Origin: Gammaproteobacteria bacterium
GTDB taxonomy: Bacteria > Pseudomonadota > Gammaproteobacteria > Acidiferrobacterales > Sulfurifustaceae
Length of the DNA: 52,514 nucleotides
NCBI GenBank assembly: GCA_016199745.1
Contig: JACQFZ010000052.1
Location: 1-52,514, forward strand
Reading direction: 5' to 3'
Of this stretch, positions 2,702-37,624 are shown piece by piece. A program made the translations under genes and the position numbers. Below the pieces are notes generated by a model. That model was given only the letters and a program-made list of their open reading frames with translations. It was not told the origin of the DNA and searched no databases. Each line of letters begins with the position of its first letter. The first letter of the stretch is position 1.

Positions 2702-3154
2702 TTAATGCGGAACCGTAGTGTTGTCGCTTCGTGCCCCCGGTTGATAGTCGGAGCGCCCTTCTTGGGTTCGTCGACGGATCGTTTTGAGTCCTTGCCGTTC
2801 GCCATCGATCTCGCGCTCGGTGCGAAAGCCCAAGCGCCGCAAGAGCGGCAGCGGCGGACACCAGCCCTGTAGCGCGTGCTGCAATAAAAATCCCGCGACG
2901 ATGCCGGGCACGAACAAGAAGCGACGACTCACAAACACCGCTAAACCGACGCCGGCCAAAATGACCGATGCCGCATTGGCTTCAAGCGCACGCTCGATAT
3001 CCCATTCCTTCTCCAACACCTGCAGGCGTTGATCGATTTCCTGCGGATGGTCGCGGTAATAGGCCAAATCCTTCTTGGTCGACAACCGTAACGCGTGATT
3101 CGTCACGTCGGACGTATGTTGCGGCACTCTATCGGCGGTGGTCGGTAGTTCCAT
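2702..3154 (-). CDS. Small two-helix membrane protein
   Basis: The start was set at ATG 3154-3152 because AGGAGG lies just upstream; the longer reading from 3298 has no family-like sequence. The 150-residue product has a hydrophilic, partly helical N-terminal half (STKKDLAYYRDHPQEIDQRL) followed by two adjacent hydrophobic stretches (about residues 65-105). After these comes a cytoplasmic tail with CPPLPLLRRLGFRTEREIDG. The paired short helices followed by CPP-L resemble the YgaP-type transmembrane domain (DUF2892 group). Function unknown. The terminus is rich in Arg, Ser and Thr and probably disordered. Confidence 0.6.
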   Translation of the reverse strand: MELPTTADRVPQHTSDVTNHALRLSTKKDLAYYRDHPQEIDQRLQVLEKEWDIERALEANAASVILAGVGLAVFVSRRFLFVPGIVAGFLLQHALQGWCPPLPLLRRLGFRTEREIDGERQGLKTIRRRTQEGRSDYQPGARSDNTTVPH

Positions 3155-26505: not shown

Positions 26506-29247
26506 TTGAAATCCATCGAATCAGTGACAGCGGAAAGCGCCGCAGTGGCGGCGGAGACCGCGCCGGCAACCTTGGTTTTGGTCGACGGTTCATCTTATCT
26601 ATACCGTGCGTTCCATGCCATGCCGAACTTGAGCAACTCGCACGGTGAACCGACCGGTGCGATTTACGGTGTCGCCAACATGTTGCGCAAGTTGCTCGCC
26701 GATTATCAGCCAGCCTATGTCGCGGTCGTGTTCGATGCCAAGGGTAAGACTTTCCGCGACGATATCTTTGCCGAATACAAAGCCAACCGCGCGCCGATGC
26801 CGAGCGAGCTATCGCAACAGATCGAGTCGATCCATGCGATCGTGCAGGCGCTTGGGTTGCCGCTGTTGCAAATAGAAGGTGTCGAGGCCGACGACGTCAT
26901 CGGTACGTTGGCGCGGCGGGCGACGGCGAGCGGTTTGCACACATTGATCTCTACCGGCGACAAGGATATGGCGCAGCTGGTCGATGCGCAGGTCACGTTG
27001 GTCAATACGATGACCGATACGACTTACGATCGCGCCGGTGTCGTCGACAAGTTCGGTGTACCGCCCGAGTGTATCGTCGACTATCTTGCGCTGGTCGGCG
27101 ATTCGGTCGACAACATCCCCGGCGTTGCCGGCGTCGGACCGAAGACCGCGGCGAAATGGTTGCAGCAGTACGGTTCGCTCGACGCGCTGGTCGCCCAGGC
27201 CGGTGCCATCACCGGCAAGGCCGGCGAAAACTTGCGCGCCGGCCTGCCGACGCTGCCGTTGGCGCGCGAGCTGGCCACTATAAAGTGTGACGTCGAACTG
27301 CCTCTCAGCCCGACCGAATTACAGCGTCGTTCGCCTGAAGTCGATCGCTTGCGAGAGTTGTACGCACGCTTCGAATTTAGATCGTGGCTCGCCGATCTCG
27401 GCGGCATGAACACGACGCCGGCGCCGGCAGCGCAGCCGGCGAAGCACTACGACACGATCTTCGACGAGCAGCTGCTCGATCAATGGCTCGAGCGTTTAGG
27501 TAAAGCGACGCTGTTCGCTTTCGATACCGAGACCACCAGTCTGGATGCCCAGCGCGCCGAGTTGGTCGGCGTTTCCTTTACCGATCGTTGCGGCGAAGGC
27601 GCTTATGTTCCGTTGGCACATATCTATCCCGGTGCGCCGGCGCAGCTCGATCGGGCGCAAGTGTTGGCGAAATTGAAACCGCTGCTCGAAGACCGGTCGC
27701 GGCTCAAAGTCGGCCACAACCTAAAGTACGACATGAACGTACTGGCCAATTACGACATCAAGCTCGCCGGCATCGGTTACGACACCATGCTCGAATCGTA
27801 CGTGCTCGATTCGACCGCGTCGCGCCACGACATGGATAGTCTTGCACTCAAGTATCTCGGCTATAAAACGATCAAGTACGAAGATGTCACCGGCAAAGGC
27901 AAGGCGCAGATCAATTTCTGCGAAGTGCCGATCGAGCAGGCAAGTACCTACGCTGCCGAAGACGCCGACGTTACGTTGCGACTGCACGAGCACTTGTGGC
28001 CGCGCTTGCAAGAAACGGCGTCGTTGGCATCGTTGTTTCGCGAGATCGAACTGCCGCTGGCACCGGTGTTGGCGCACATGGAACGCACCGGCGTACACAT
28101 CGACGTCGACATGCTGCGCACGCAATCGAGCGAAATCGCCCGGCGTCTGCTCGAGCTCGAACAGGAAGCGCACTCGGCCGCCGGCCAGCCGTTCAATTTG
28201 GATTCACCGAAACAGATTCAGGAAATTTTATTTCAGAAGTTGAAGTTGCCGGTATTGCGCAAGACCCCGACCGGCCAGCCGTCCACCAACGAGGATGTGT
28301 TGGCCGAGCTCGCGCTCGATTATTCGTTGCCACAATTGCTTCTCGAATATCGCGGCCTCGCCAAGCTCAAGTCGACATACACCGACAAGCTGCCGGAGAT
28401 GATCAACCCAAACACCGGCCGTGTGCATACGTGTTACCAGCAAGCGGTTGCCGCGACCGGCCGGCTGTCGTCGACCGAGCCGAATTTGCAAAATATTCCG
28501 ATCCGCACCGCCGAGGGACGGCGCATTCGCCAAGCGTTCGTCGCCGCGCCGGGTGCGCGTATCGTCTCTGCCGACTACTCGCAAATCGAATTGCGCATCA
28601 TGGCGCATCTGTCGGCCGATTCCGGTTTGATCGGCGCATTTGCCAAAGGCATCGATATCCACCGCGCGACTGCGGCCGAAGTCTTTAGCGTCGCGCCGGA
28701 GGCGGTCACCGATGAGATGCGCCGCAATGCCAAGGCTATCAATTTCGGATTGATCTACGGAATGTCGGCGTTCGGGCTCGCGCGCCAGTTGAAGATCGAT
28801 CGGTCGGCAGCGCAGCAGTATGTCGATCTCTACTTCGCCCGCTATCCCGGGGTGAAGGCATTCATGGACCGCACGCGTGAGCAGGCGCGTACCCAGGGTT
28901 ATGTCGAAACGCTGTTCGGCCGGCGGCTACATCTGCAGGACATCAATGCCTCGAATGCCGGTCGCCGCCAAGGGGCGGAGCGCGCCGCTATCAACGCGCC
29001 GATGCAGGGGACGGCAGCCGATCTGATTAAGATAGCGATGTTGCGGGTCGATCGTTGGATTCGCGAGTCAGCCGCGCCGGTCCGTATGGTTATGCAAGTG
29101 CACGACGAACTCGTGTTCGAGATTGCCGAGCCGTTCATTCCGGTCGCGCTGGAGCACATTCGCGAGTGCATGACGCAAGTAAAAAAGTTGGATGTCCCCC
29201 TGGTCGTCGATATCGGAGTCGGCCATAATTGGGACCAAGCACATTAA
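26506..29247 (+). CDS. polA: DNA polymerase I
   Basis: A 913-residue DNA polymerase I for repair and Okazaki fragment processing. The 5'-3' exonuclease (about 20-310) begins LVDGSSYLYRAFHAMPN; the 3'-5' exonuclease (about 320-500) keeps FDTETTSLD; the polymerase holds motif A DYSQIELRIMAHLS, motif B RRNAKAINFGLIYG and motif C MQVHDELVFE. All three activities look intact. The start is TTG 26506 with AAAGG upstream; GTG 26524 is possible. A structured small RNA gene follows immediately, the position of Spot 42 in enterobacteria and ErsA in pseudomonads. Confidence 0.97.
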   Translation: MKSIESVTAESAAVAAETAPATLVLVDGSSYLYRAFHAMPNLSNSHGEPTGAIYGVANMLRKLLADYQPAYVAVVFDAKGKTFRDDIFAEYKANRAPMPSELSQQIESIHAIVQALGLPLLQIEGVEADDVIGTLARRATASGLHTLISTGDKDMAQLVDAQVTLVNTMTDTTYDRAGVVDKFGVPPECIVDYLALVGDSVDNIPGVAGVGPKTAAKWLQQYGSLDALVAQAGAITGKAGENLRAGLPTLPLARELATIKCDVELPLSPTELQRRSPEVDRLRELYARFEFRSWLADLGGMNTTPAPAAQPAKHYDTIFDEQLLDQWLERLGKATLFAFDTETTSLDAQRAELVGVSFTDRCGEGAYVPLAHIYPGAPAQLDRAQVLAKLKPLLEDRSRLKVGHNLKYDMNVLANYDIKLAGIGYDTMLESYVLDSTASRHDMDSLALKYLGYKTIKYEDVTGKGKAQINFCEVPIEQASTYAAEDADVTLRLHEHLWPRLQETASLASLFREIELPLAPVLAHMERTGVHIDVDMLRTQSSEIARRLLELEQEAHSAAGQPFNLDSPKQIQEILFQKLKLPVLRKTPTGQPSTNEDVLAELALDYSLPQLLLEYRGLAKLKSTYTDKLPEMINPNTGRVHTCYQQAVAATGRLSSTEPNLQNIPIRTAEGRRIRQAFVAAPGARIVSADYSQIELRIMAHLSADSGLIGAFAKGIDIHRATAAEVFSVAPEAVTDEMRRNAKAINFGLIYGMSAFGLARQLKIDRSAAQQYVDLYFARYPGVKAFMDRTREQARTQGYVETLFGRRLHLQDINASNAGRRQGAERAAINAPMQGTAADLIKIAMLRVDRWIRESAAPVRMVMQVHDELVFEIAEPFIPVALEHIRECMTQVKKLDVPLVVDIGVGHNWDQAH

Positions 29248-29305: not shown

Positions 29306-29374
29306 ATGCTTAAGAAGTCCGGTCTATTCTTCCGAACGTTTCGGAAGATCGTTCTCCCCGCTCCTCCTCCCTGA
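29306..29374 (+). CDS. 22-codon ORF inside the post-polA RNA
   Basis: ATG 29306 has an ideal ribosome site (AAGGAG, 8 nt away) that sits in the loop of the first hairpin. The 22-residue peptide is basic, aromatic and ends in prolines (MLKKSGLFFRTFRKIVLPAP then PP). It overlaps two of the sRNA stem-loops, and the stop codon falls in the loop/stem of the CU-rich hairpin. Spot 42 of E. coli is known to encode a small protein (SpfP), so a dual-function RNA is plausible here. It could also be chance. Confidence 0.45.
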   Translation: MLKKSGLFFRTFRKIVLPAPPP

Positions 29375-29412
29375 GCGGGGAAAGTCCCGGACCAAGTGCC
29401 GGGACGTTGTTC

Positions 29413-29452
29413 AGCCCCGGACTCTCTCCCCTTGTTTCCGGGGCTTTTTTTT
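29413..29452 (+). terminator. Terminator of post-polA RNA
   Basis: AGCCCCGGA pairs with TCCGGGGCT around a 15-nt loop (CTCTCTCCCCTTGTT), followed by eight T. A strong Rho-independent terminator. Confidence 0.92.
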
Positions 29453-34522: not shown

Positions 34523-34772
34523 TTCTGCTGTAGGTCGATGCGAGGCCGGAAATTCTACCGTTACGCTTGCGGTTTCACCATTTGCGCTAAACATGGGAGA
34601 ATTCGCCGTCCGTTGCGCACTGCGCCGCCTTATCGCGATCTTAACGGACTGGGTCATCGATGGCTTGAGACCCAAAATTTCCGGAAACATTCCGCTCAAC
34701 TAAATAATGCCGGCCGGCATGGTTGCGCATTGCTTTTTTAAAAACGAGCGGTGACCAACATTCGAGGTAGTG

Positions 34773-34937
34773 ATGAAAACTTATATGTGCGTGGTCTGCG
34801 GTTATATCTATGACGAGGCCAAAGGCGCGCCAGACGAAGGTATTGCGCCCGGCACTCGCTGGGACGACGTTCCTGAGAATTGGAAATGCCCAGAGTGTGG
34901 GGCGGCGAAAAGCGATTTCGAGATGATCGAAATTTAA
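34773..34937 (+). CDS. rubA: Rubredoxin
   Basis: A 54-residue one-iron electron carrier. Cys6, Cys9, Cys39 and Cys42 in CVVCGYIYD and [11 protein letters not shown] form the iron site, and the body [20 protein letters not shown] is standard. ATG 34773 follows GAGG. It passes electrons to alkane hydroxylases, rubredoxin-oxygen reductases or superoxide reductase; no partner is adjacent. It is shorter than the usual gene-calling cutoff, so easily missed. Confidence 0.95.
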
Positions 34938-35745
34938 TCCACGATTCCAATAAATTTAGAAAGCACCGTTCGGGGTAATCCGAATGGCGTGCGAATGGCC
35001 GCCATACGTTCCCTCAACCGTGGCATGGATTGGCCGAGCATACGATGGAGAGTTTTTTATATACGACAGCGCGTAAATAGGTCGGTCGTTGATGGCGATA
35101 AGCCCCGTGGTGAAAGCGCCACGGCTTCGCAAGTTTGCAGCAGGGTGGAGAACCGCAACCGCCCCCACCCTAACCATTCCCGCCCAGTGCGCGCGAACAT
35201 CAGCGCGCCCGTTCGCCGGCGTGAGTGTCCACGGGACACTCACGAAAACCCCGCCTCACCCCCCGCTGCGCAGGGGAGGGGATGAAAAGCAAAAACGACT
35301 AGGCCGTTAGTTGTCTTCCACCCGCCGCCACCGATCCATTCCCTCCCCCGCAACAGCGGGGGAGGGTTAGGGTGGGGGGTGTGTGAAATGGGCTTTTGCG
35401 GTTGCTGTCGTTGCGCTTAATCCCCGTGTGGCGCATTCCGAGCATCGGCGCTTTTGGCCTCGAGCGCGCAGGACGCGCGCGTCTGGCTCAGCCCAGGGAG
35501 GGGCTGTGCCAGACATAGTTGGTTGCCAAAAGCGAGAAGCACAGGAAGGTTTTGCGCCACCCCGGGGGGTGCTTTCTTTTGGTTCCTTTTCGGGTGCTGT
35601 ACCGGGACGTACGAATGTCGCGAGCGCAGGATGCGCAGGAGCGACCACCAGCAAAGAAAAGTAACCCTGGGTTGCGGGGCGGAGCACCCCGCTGATTACA
35701 TTTTATTAACTCGACCAGCATCGCCCCAACGGGGCGATTCAACCA
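34938..35745. repeat. Repeat-rich intergenic region
   Basis: About 800 bp without a gene. Perfect inverted repeats: GTGAGTGTCC-ACG-GGACACTCAC (35221-35243), CCCTCCCCCGC-AACA-GCGGGGGAGGG (35341-35366) and GCGGGG...CCCCGC (35674-35692). CCCC/GGGG-rich 'CTCACCCC' units resemble dispersed intergenic repeats. The 35450-35720 part (TTTTGGTTCC..., AAAGAAAAGTAACC...) resembles intergenic repeat families I know from Xanthomonadales-type genomes. Frames in this area are by-products of these repeats. Confidence 0.6.
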
Positions 35746-35933
35746 TCAATCCAACTCCACCAACAAACCCTTAGCAACAATCGTCTTCCCCGGCTTCTTG
35801 AGGACTCAGCAATAGCCTTCTTGCGTAAATATTCTAGGCTGTTAACATCATTCAAAATATTGAATGACTTTTTAGACGATTTTTTAGCTAGCGCAGTAAG
35901 GCGAGAAGTTGAATAGAAGTGTTTGGTGATCAA
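35746..35933 (-). pseudogene. Frameshifted small gene remnant
   Basis: From ATG 35933 the frame gives a basic peptide (MITKHFYSTSRLTALAKKSS ... LEYLRKKAIAES). At about 35800 the reading becomes Arg/Trp-rich nonsense, but the neighbouring frame continues as LKKPGKTIVAKGLLVELD and stops at 35746. A single-base indel would join the two into one sensible small protein of about 62 residues. The family is unknown; an antitoxin-like protein is possible but unproven. Confidence 0.35.
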
Positions 35934-35980
35934 CGTGGAATTGAGATACTGTTAGCAGGGGAATGTTGACGGCACGCTTG

Positions 35981-36008
35981 TTGACCACAGCACTGGGTCC
36001 GAAATATT
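35981..36008 (+). promoter_or_regulatory. Candidate promoter of second small RNA
   Basis: TTGACC (35981-35986), a 16-bp spacer, and AATATT (36003-36008). Expected start near 36015, giving a transcript of about 130 nt that ends at the terminator. Confidence 0.4.
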
Positions 36009-36014
36009 TACCAA

Positions 36015-36147
36015 CTGAGAATTCGAGAACGTACTGAACAACAGCGCCGCAAGCGCGAAATCGATGCGATCTCCCTCAGAGACGAGCTCCTCCCTGTTCG
36101 TCTCTGATTATTAGCCCGTGCCACCCCTTAAGCACGGGCATTTTTTT
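36015..36147 (+). ncRNA. Second small RNA candidate with CU-rich anti-SD loop
   Basis: A non-coding stretch with a perfect 10-bp hairpin (36076-36107: TCAGAGACGA / TCGTCTCTGA) whose loop is GCTCCTCCCTGT. It is followed by the terminator hairpin GCCCGTGC/GCACGGGC (36114-36147; loop CACCCCTTAA; seven T). The hairpin loop repeats the CTCCTCCCTG of the RNA downstream of polA. A small hairpin may form upstream at GCGC...GCGC (36044-36056). No ORF with a ribosome site is inside. The 5' end is inferred from the promoter candidate. Confidence 0.6.
36114..36147 (+). terminator. Rho-independent terminator of second small RNA
   Basis: GCCCGTGC pairs with GCACGGGC around a 10-nt loop; seven T follow. 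The next gene is on the other strand, so this ends a plus-strand transcript of which nothing else is known, other than the RNA above. Confidence 0.9.
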
Positions 36148-36226
36148 GCTTACAGCAGCCGCTAGCAACACCTCGCTCTTTAAAAAAATCTAAGATGTTT
36201 GCGTGCGGTAGGTATAAAAAACAAAA

Positions 36227-37624
36227 CTACATCTCCAGCTTGAGACGCTTCAACTTGTAGTGCAGCGTATTCGGCTGCAGCCCGAGTAATCGTGCGGCTT
36301 GGGCTTGATTGCCAGCGCAAGAACGTAACGCCTCTTTGATCAAAAAGGCTTCATAGTGGGCGAGACGCTCGGCCAACGGATGCAGAGCAATTTCCTTCGC
36401 TGGCATGCCGGGCGCGTGAGCCGGTGGGACAGTTGCCGGCGACACCATACTGTCGCGCCGAGTGGTTGGGTTAGTTTGCAGCAGATTGTCTAAAAATAAC
36501 CCGGCAAGTTGTTGAACAACTCGTTCGATCCTGGCGAAGTCGGCCGGTGTATACATCCGCCGCGCAAAGGTTTCACCGAAGAGTAACCAGCTCGAAGCGG
36601 TTTGGCTGTGCGGAAATAACGGTACGATCGCGCCGAGGCGGCGTTGTTTCATCAAATCGTTAAGCGGGCCTCTAATCTCTCCAGCAACTACCATGTGCTG
36701 CACATCGGCCAGCTGCGCTGCCGGAAGATCAGCACCTATCCCATGGTCGGAGTAAACCCCGCCGTTCGCGCTAACTAACGCTACCGGGCACTGCAATACG
36801 TCTGCCAACTGCTTTAGCAATTGCGTTACCGATGACGATTTCGGCGAGTCTTCGATGAGTGCCGCCAAGGTGTGATAAAGCGTTTGCTTAGTGCGTTTGA
36901 TCTTAGAAAACGGAAAATAAACGCCTGGCTCGATAATGCGATGGTTATGGATGGCATAACCGACGCCAGCTAAGAATAGCGCTAGCGGAATCGGCATGGT
37001 CACCGTGGTGTTGAACCAGCGAATGTCGAAGTGCAGCAATGTCAGCGTTGTCGCCACCAGCAACACACACGGCACCGCGGTCAGCAGCCAAATCTGGCAG
37101 CGGCTGCGAAGCTTGCCGTTGCGGTCCAAGCGGATGCCGCGGATGGGTAGACAAAGCACCGTCAACAATGTCAGCGCGAAAAACATTTCCAGCAACGGAA
37201 AGAACGGACCGGGGATGCTCGTAATCGTGTAGCCACCGAGCCAGATGTAGCCGGCAATTAATTGCGGCGGGAACGCCAGCAGCGCCAACAATACCAGTGC
37301 AAACCCGTATGCCAGCGGGTAAGTGAGCATCAGCAACCAGCGCGGCGGATTTTCGAAGGCGACGCACACCGTGAGATGACACAGCACGGCGCAGAAGACG
37401 ATGACGACAGCGTGGTAAAAATCGCCCAGGGTAGGCAGATAACTATCGGTGAGTCGTAGAAAACCGAAAATTTCGAGCGCATTCAGCGCCATCGCCAGAA
37501 ATACGGCGACGACGAACAAGCGCGTGCGCGTATCGCGAATCGGCGAACGCCGGGAGTAAATCAACAACAGAACCTTGGCGATTAAAGCGAGAATCGCCGG
37601 CAGGCTGTATGCATAGATGAGCAC
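36227..37624 (-). CDS. Membrane-anchored GAF regulator with Fis-type HTH
   Basis: A 465-residue protein. About seven hydrophobic helices fill residues 1-230 (IYAYSLPAILALIAKVLLLI; GYIWLGGYTITSIPGPFFPL), resembling the 7TM sensor modules of some histidine kinases. A GAF-like domain follows (about 260-385), then a linker and a C-terminal Fis-type helix-turn-helix (LIKEALRSCAGNQAQAARLL, then GLQPNTLHYKLKRLKLEM). There is no kinase, ATPase or sigma-54 contact domain. This would be a transcription factor that binds DNA while embedded in the membrane, unless the C-terminal part is released by proteolysis. It is divergent from fadE. Confidence 0.7.
   Translation of the reverse strand: MLIYAYSLPAILALIAKVLLLIYSRRSPIRDTRTRLFVVAVFLAMALNALEIFGFLRLTDSYLPTLGDFYHAVVIVFCAVLCHLTVCVAFENPPRWLLMLTYPLAYGFALVLLALLAFPPQLIAGYIWLGGYTITSIPGPFFPLLEMFFALTLLTVLCLPIRGIRLDRNGKLRSRCQIWLLTAVPCVLLVATTLTLLHFDIRWFNTTVTMPIPLALFLAGVGYAIHNHRIIEPGVYFPFSKIKRTKQTLYHTLAALIEDSPKSSSVTQLLKQLADVLQCPVALVSANGGVYSDHGIGADLPAAQLADVQHMVVAGEIRGPLNDLMKQRRLGAIVPLFPHSQTASSWLLFGETFARRMYTPADFARIERVVQQLAGLFLDNLLQTNPTTRRDSMVSPATVPPAHAPGMPAKEIALHPLAERLAHYEAFLIKEALRSCAGNQAQAARLLGLQPNTLHYKLKRLKLEM

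Follow-up and report, generated by a model that had tools for sequence, protein, structure and literature searches.

The intergenic DNA that ends at position 36147 of the window, the whole stretch of 52,514 nucleotides that was analysed, probably contains (with a probability of roughly two thirds) a lineage-restricted gene for a trans-acting sRNA, whose hairpin loop UCCUCCCU would pair with Shine-Dalgarno (SD) sites and whose putative transcript would be read from a candidate promoter. The locus, hereafter the second RNA, folds into a hairpin and a terminator, shares its loop with a first RNA (RNA1) of the same window and is matched by models of related RNAs, and the genome encodes an hfq gene (104.9 bits).

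Hairpin, terminator and shared loop

Inspection of the sequence revealed ten perfect pairs between TCAGAGACGA (36076-36085) and TCGTCTCTGA (36098-36107), and the predicted fold adds the pairs G36086-U36097 and C36087-G36096, which leaves the octaloop UCCUCCCU closed by C-G. A linker of six bases leads to the terminator, in which the stem strands GCCCGTGC (36114-36121) and GCACGGGC (36132-36139) are followed by an A and the T7 tail. The fold energy of the 78 nt from 36070 to 36147 amounts to -36.6 kcal/mol (z = -10.0), and none of 200 shuffled sequences equalled this value. The perfect 10-bp hairpin with a GCTCCTCCCTGT loop and a subsequent C-loop terminator, as described by the sequence-only reading, is thus borne out by sequence and fold. 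Within the limits set for the scan, the second RNA represents the single place in the window where a perfect hairpin of at least 8 bp is followed by a terminator not more than 80 nt away; RNA1 falls outside these limits with its terminator loop of 16 nt. The coordinates of the features are compiled in Table 1. The motif CCCCUU in the terminator loop is common to the second RNA, many RF02837 RNAs and the RNAs of another genome of the order, G045. The loop CACCCCTTAA is a possible second pairing loop, and the U tail is possibly of the Hfq type. A bidirectional terminator is unlikely, because no T run follows the stem on the minus strand.

Table 1. Positions of the two RNAs and of the elements assigned to the second RNA
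Feature	Position	Strand	Remarks
First RNA (RNA1), Rfam RF02837 anti-hemB	29355-29452	+	61.1 bits, cut-off 49.5; three hairpins
Possible sigma-70 promoter TTGACC-16-AATATT	35981-36008	+	9 of 12 consensus matches
Putative 5' leader	36015-36075	+	weakly folded
Anti-SD hairpin of the second RNA	36076-36107	+	10-bp stem, loop GCTCCTCCCTGT
Intrinsic terminator of the second RNA	36114-36147	+	8-bp stem, C-rich loop CACCCCTTAA, T7 tail

The hairpins of both RNAs display the same loop sequence, as GCTCCTCCCTGT in the second RNA and as CTCCTCCCTG in RNA1 (29364-29373, within the CCCCGCTC/GAGCGGGG hairpin), and their stems have no sequence in common; both observations of the sequence-only reading were confirmed. 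Its term 'unlinked' is loose wording, because the two RNAs are located 6.7 kb apart on one strand. With respect to chance, CTCCTCCC was found twice in the window and 0.45 times were expected; since 8 of 100 shuffled sequences do as well, the motif by itself is weak evidence. Genome-wide, five occurrences of CTCCTCCCTG were counted versus one of the reversed pattern, and two of the five are the loops of RNA1 and the second RNA. According to our own reading, none of the other three is placed in a strong hairpin loop before a terminator: one belongs to the strand of a 592-codon open frame, one is close to a terminator of the other strand and one is part of a hairpin stem. A chance origin of the shared loop in its hairpin-plus-terminator context is unlikely. 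The genome search for this loop motif in pre-terminator hairpins was run with the 10-mer and with Rfam models, and for the 10-mer only the two loops fit. Across genome contigs, in a list that may omit the window's own genome, the pattern CTCCTCCCTG-N-ACCCCTT-N-TTTTT occurs in 31 stretches, of which 13 are double-loop RNAs by their folds and our own reading (12 RF02837-like RNAs and one G045 RNA); the remaining 18 are not, and one of these (L148) has the first loop without a clear terminator.

RF02837 and the relatives of the second RNA

RNA1 adjoins the polA gene, which ends at 29247, on its downstream side. In the order Acidiferrobacterales, RF02837 matches with E values of at most 0.01 were obtained in 54 of 57 genomes and exceed the cut-off in 35 of the 57, and some of the weaker matches (e.g. 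in G004) are unlike RNA1 in appearance. The sequence CCTCCCTGAG is invariant in all 26 aligned RF02837 RNAs of the order and the surrounding stem is nearly so, and therefore stem and loop are conserved jointly in this family. A narrow motif test placed 16 of 30 RF02837 loci downstream of polA, a recurrent context that is outside Rfam's definition. The available part of PMC5688073 equates ncS04 of Burkholderia cenocepacia with RF02837 and cites Hfq binding; no paper on RF02837 and none on sRNAs of the Acidiferrobacterales was found in the paper collection searched. A second RF02837-like RNA of about 40 bits, whose loop reads GTCCTCCTCCCTGAG and whose terminator loop contains six to seven consecutive C, was observed around position 3000 of four loci (L098, L099, L100 and L101) from genomes of family f2.

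The second RNA itself reaches 28.8 bits with RF02837, under the gathering cut-off of 49.5. Among the 150 of 238 first-look candidates that were scored, it represents the second-best match of its genome (E = 1.8e-4) behind the polA-linked RNA, with the third at 23.0 bits. It carries the CCTCCCTG loop on the first hairpin that characterizes RF02837, lacks the middle hairpin that separates the loop hairpin from the terminator in that family, and is not located downstream of polA. The other scores were 25.6 bits for ar14 (cut-off 58.8), 20.5 for SorX (46.6), 20 for NsiR1 (39) and 18.9 for RF02278 (50); together with RF02837, these are the best five of 11 Rfam families listed for the second RNA, which is under the cut-off of all 11. 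In place of the three CCUCCUCCC-motif hairpins typical of ar14 and cuckoo RNAs, it has one such loop. CU-rich or anti-SD stretches are known for four of the best five families, namely RF02837, ar14, SorX and RF02278, those of the latter being described in the part of PMC5688073 at hand. The second RNA should be assigned to none of RF02837, RF02278 and ar14.

DNA orthologue searches detected no counterpart of positions 35940-36160 within the genus (two genomes including its own) and none of 36010-36150 in the family, of which 19 further genomes were covered, including one from the same genus; besides the window, the DNA matches extend over at most 35 bases (best E value 0.003), and none covers the hairpin. 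RNAs of the same two-hairpin build were recognized in one genome of the order, G045, by means of secondary RF02837 matches. They resemble the second RNA in a CCUCCCUG loop closed by C-G, a C-rich terminator loop and the register of both stems, but differ from it in the bases of stem and terminator, in the occurrence of several copies in one genome and in promoter-like elements (identified by eye, e.g. TTGACG and TAGAAT) close ahead of the hairpins. In an alignment of the second RNA with two G045 RNAs, 98.2% of cells were paired and both partners had changed in 11 of 20 pairs, with 0 of 500 shuffles as high, a statistic that is descriptive only because the second RNA was part of the alignment.

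The model R1, composed of the second RNA and two G045 RNAs, yielded 18 rows over 57 genomes of the order under strict filters that can lose matches. These rows comprise the three training RNAs, two new strong matches (58.6 and 51.7 bits) and a weak one (23.6 bits) in G045, four matches at RF02837 places (36-41 bits) and eight at the additional RF02837-like RNA that family f2 carries (22-26 bits); with these filters, R1 found no two-hairpin relative outside G045 in the 57 genomes. Over 369 genomes of the class, again with strict filters, the six matches were the window, three RF02837-looking RNAs and two sequences without an anti-SD loop.

Model R2 was built from three G045 RNAs only and did not include the second RNA, which it matched with 46.4 bits and an E value of 1.1e-10 in 106 kb. 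The score was again 46.4 bits in an unfiltered scan, in which no unrelated place of the 32.5 kb of window sequence covered exceeded 11.8 bits; the background in other sequence went up to 17.4 bits. R2 also recognizes RF02837 RNAs, with scores that reach the same height (RNA1 35.1 bits, an RNA of Thiobacillus 47.9 bits), and thus describes one similarity group without showing a private family. The genome-wide R2 scans, which score first-look candidates only, do not list the second RNA found by the direct scans; we take it to have been lost at the first-look step. Two further weaker copies were detected by R2 in G045 (41.6 and 35.9 bits), the CU-rich first loops of which contain, as judged by eye, TTCCTCCC and CTCTCCCACC instead of CTCCTCCC.

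Other hairpin elements were observed in the order as well. A different recurrent hairpin, located at 1501-1588 of L009 (own contig C57:101203-101290), consists of a CCTGGTTCGG-like stem around TGCACCCCC-ACCCCGAA with a subsequent terminator. It is also present in L107, L108, L111, L113, L116, L118, L122 and L127 from several families of the order, and scans of L009 and L113 gave no Rfam match at gathering score. At 3001-3060 of L129 (own contig C71:13967-14026, minus strand), CTCCTCCATCCTCC precedes a terminator; this element is the best RF02278 match of its genome (33.9 bits, below the cut-off) and is followed about 1 kb downstream, on the same strand, by a tRNA and a match to Rfam RtT. In two genomes of genus g24 (L105, L109), short stretches that end in terminators are arranged in tandem; they contain TTCCTCCTGA and TCCTCCTCCTGATG, which are not placed in clear hairpin loops.

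Candidate promoter, gene neighbourhood and alternative readings

The promoter elements TTGACC and AATATT named by the sequence-only reading are present, but as a signal they are weak, with one site found versus 0.5 expected in shuffles of 35700-36400. This sole candidate for the second RNA ends 67 bases ahead of the hairpin and would give a transcript of about 133 nt from near position 36015; it is the weakest link of the case.

The surroundings of the second RNA are poor in genes and may be in decay. A regulator gene with a Fis-type HTH (36227-37624) is convergent with it; a role as cis antisense of this gene was rejected for the coding part, because the RNA ends at 36147, ahead of the stop of the gene. 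A palindrome-like sequence, TTCAAAATATTGAA, was noticed at 35851-35864, about 360 bases past the 3' end of the regulator gene, and is a possible operator. The pattern TTCAAAATNTTGAA was also encountered near related regulator genes, at distances of up to about 1.3 kb, in G005, G006 and G008 (L170, L169 and L175). A small ORF (34770-34937), which we take to resemble a rubredoxin, is divergent from the ferrochelatase gene.

The negative orthologue search and the weak promoter are also consistent with a plain intrinsic terminator behind a chance hairpin, left in the gap of about 34940-36227 as the remnant of a lost or decayed gene and devoid of a role in trans. Moreover, in G006 and G005 (L169, L170) a protein-coding-looking gene, presumably resembling a ketoacyl synthase III, was seen by eye on the same side of a 43-44% identical regulator; it is not seen at that place in the window, where the second RNA is found instead, and the different gene content indicates that the region has been remodelled. 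A remnant is nevertheless an unlikely explanation, as the single plus-strand ORF of more than 100 aa in the upstream kilobase (35454-35774) has no Pfam match, a plain terminator needs no 10-bp hairpin with an RF02837 loop in addition to a CCCCTT terminator loop, and both the RF02837 and the R2 model single out the second RNA.

The same loop pairing could be exerted by a 3' fragment that is processed from a longer precursor. Such processing has precedents in Bordetella S17S, which RNase E releases from S17L, and in the processed ncS27, as stated in the available parts of PMC11722255 and PMC5688073, and the possible start at 36015 is separated from the hairpin by about 60 nt, a distance that is shorter for the promoter-like elements of G045 by eye. 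A convincing plus-strand gene was not found within 1 kb upstream, which makes a processed origin quite improbable. A sponge that titrates a purine-rich RNA or a protein, and not mRNAs, appears very unlikely indeed, given a loop with the reverse-complement sequence of SD sites. Its precedent is a loose one, a Caulobacter RNA sponge, the paper on which reportedly includes the terms 'sibling sRNA' and 'anti-Shine-Dalgarno'.

Proposed function and known anti-SD RNAs

The preferred reading remains a trans-acting sRNA, the mechanism of which is derived by strong analogy and for which transcription, Hfq binding, targets and the direction of regulation are proposed. The RNA would have a length of about 75-133 nt and end at the terminator at 36147, and its functional part would be the 5' hairpin, in which a stiff stem keeps the octaloop open. 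The loop would pair with purine-rich GGGAGG-type SD sites of several mRNAs, bar ribosome entry and thereby lower translation, probably assisted by Hfq on the U tail, and the C-rich terminator loop may serve as second pairing site. As a sibling in kind of RNA1, the second RNA would probably act on an overlapping set of mRNAs in response to a different trigger.

Read in reverse complement, the loop corresponds to strong SD sites, and its predicted pairing was compared for 34 non-overlapping window ORFs of at least 150 aa. The mean was -7.83 kcal/mol in start zones versus -6.85 kcal/mol in 278 interior zones (P = 0.034), and a scrambled loop had no start-zone preference (P = 0.27); the strongest pairing predicted within the window was that with the leader before 18165 (TTAGGGAGGACGATCAATG). 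The pairing with start regions envisaged by the sequence-only reading is visible as a slight preference, but any anti-SD string should behave in this way, and no target is established by it. Its notion of a loop-sharing family that targets many ribosome sites agrees with the two RNAs with one anti-SD loop and with the RF02837 and R2 matches, but it is not new: the combination of one loop with different stems and many ribosome sites is correct in kind and has already been published for ar14 and cuckoo RNAs. New here are this member, its order and the sibling expansion in one relative.

Conceivably, although we regard it as doubtful, the anti-SD RNAs of the order multiply by re-stemming, with the C-G-closed UCCUCCCU and the CCCCUU loops fixed and the stems, and so promoters and triggers, swapped; the second RNA would then have originated recently, at the level of the species, and the RNAs of G045 would go back to a recent burst. 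In that case, loop modules and not whole RNAs would be the inherited or re-invented unit. If the second RNA is real, the anti-SD sibling design known from alpha- and betaproteobacteria reaches a second locus in a little-studied order, and a common loop on a different stem and promoter would provide a natural comparison within one genome as to whether targets or timing differ.

A design directed at the ribosome sites of many mRNAs is described for other bacteria in the available parts of four sources (PMC8844928, PMC10746234, PMC5688073, PMC5362039). Within Rfam, RF02837 (anti-hemB) shares with the second RNA the CTCCTCCCTG loop on the first hairpin, CCCCTT in a C-rich terminator loop and the U tail, but differs by its middle hairpin, a conserved CCCGCT/AGCGGG stem and a frequent location after polA. 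The double-hairpin 'toxic' RNAs of RF02278 (ncS03, ncS05, ncS27 and ncS62, with S17S related) likewise have two hairpins, CU-rich unpaired stretches and siblings scattered within one genome, according to the parts of PMC5688073 and PMC11722255 at hand. NmsRA and NmsRB of Neisseria meningitidis are sibling RNAs of a similar design, with UC-rich single strands complementary to the SD sites of metabolic mRNAs; by their description in the available text (PMC5362039), they are set apart by three stem-loops each and by genes in tandem.

The AbcR1 and AbcR2 (ar15) RNAs of Sinorhizobium meliloti carry aSD1, CUCCUCCC, in the loop of a 5' hairpin as the second RNA does, and their pairing with ribosome sites is proven: mutations in aSD1 abolished target repression and compensating target mutations restored it, as reported in the part of PMC8844928 at hand, the description of which sets them apart by a second aSD motif located in the segment that connects two stem-loops. 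NfeR1 (ar14), reported to be Hfq-independent, has three aSD hairpins versus one in the second RNA, and its stem sequences are highly different, with the mechanism of aSD-loop pairing proven (PMC10746234, available part). As described there, NfeR1 and the cuckoo RNAs resemble the second RNA in identical CCUCCUCCC loops, divergent stems and many predicted targets.
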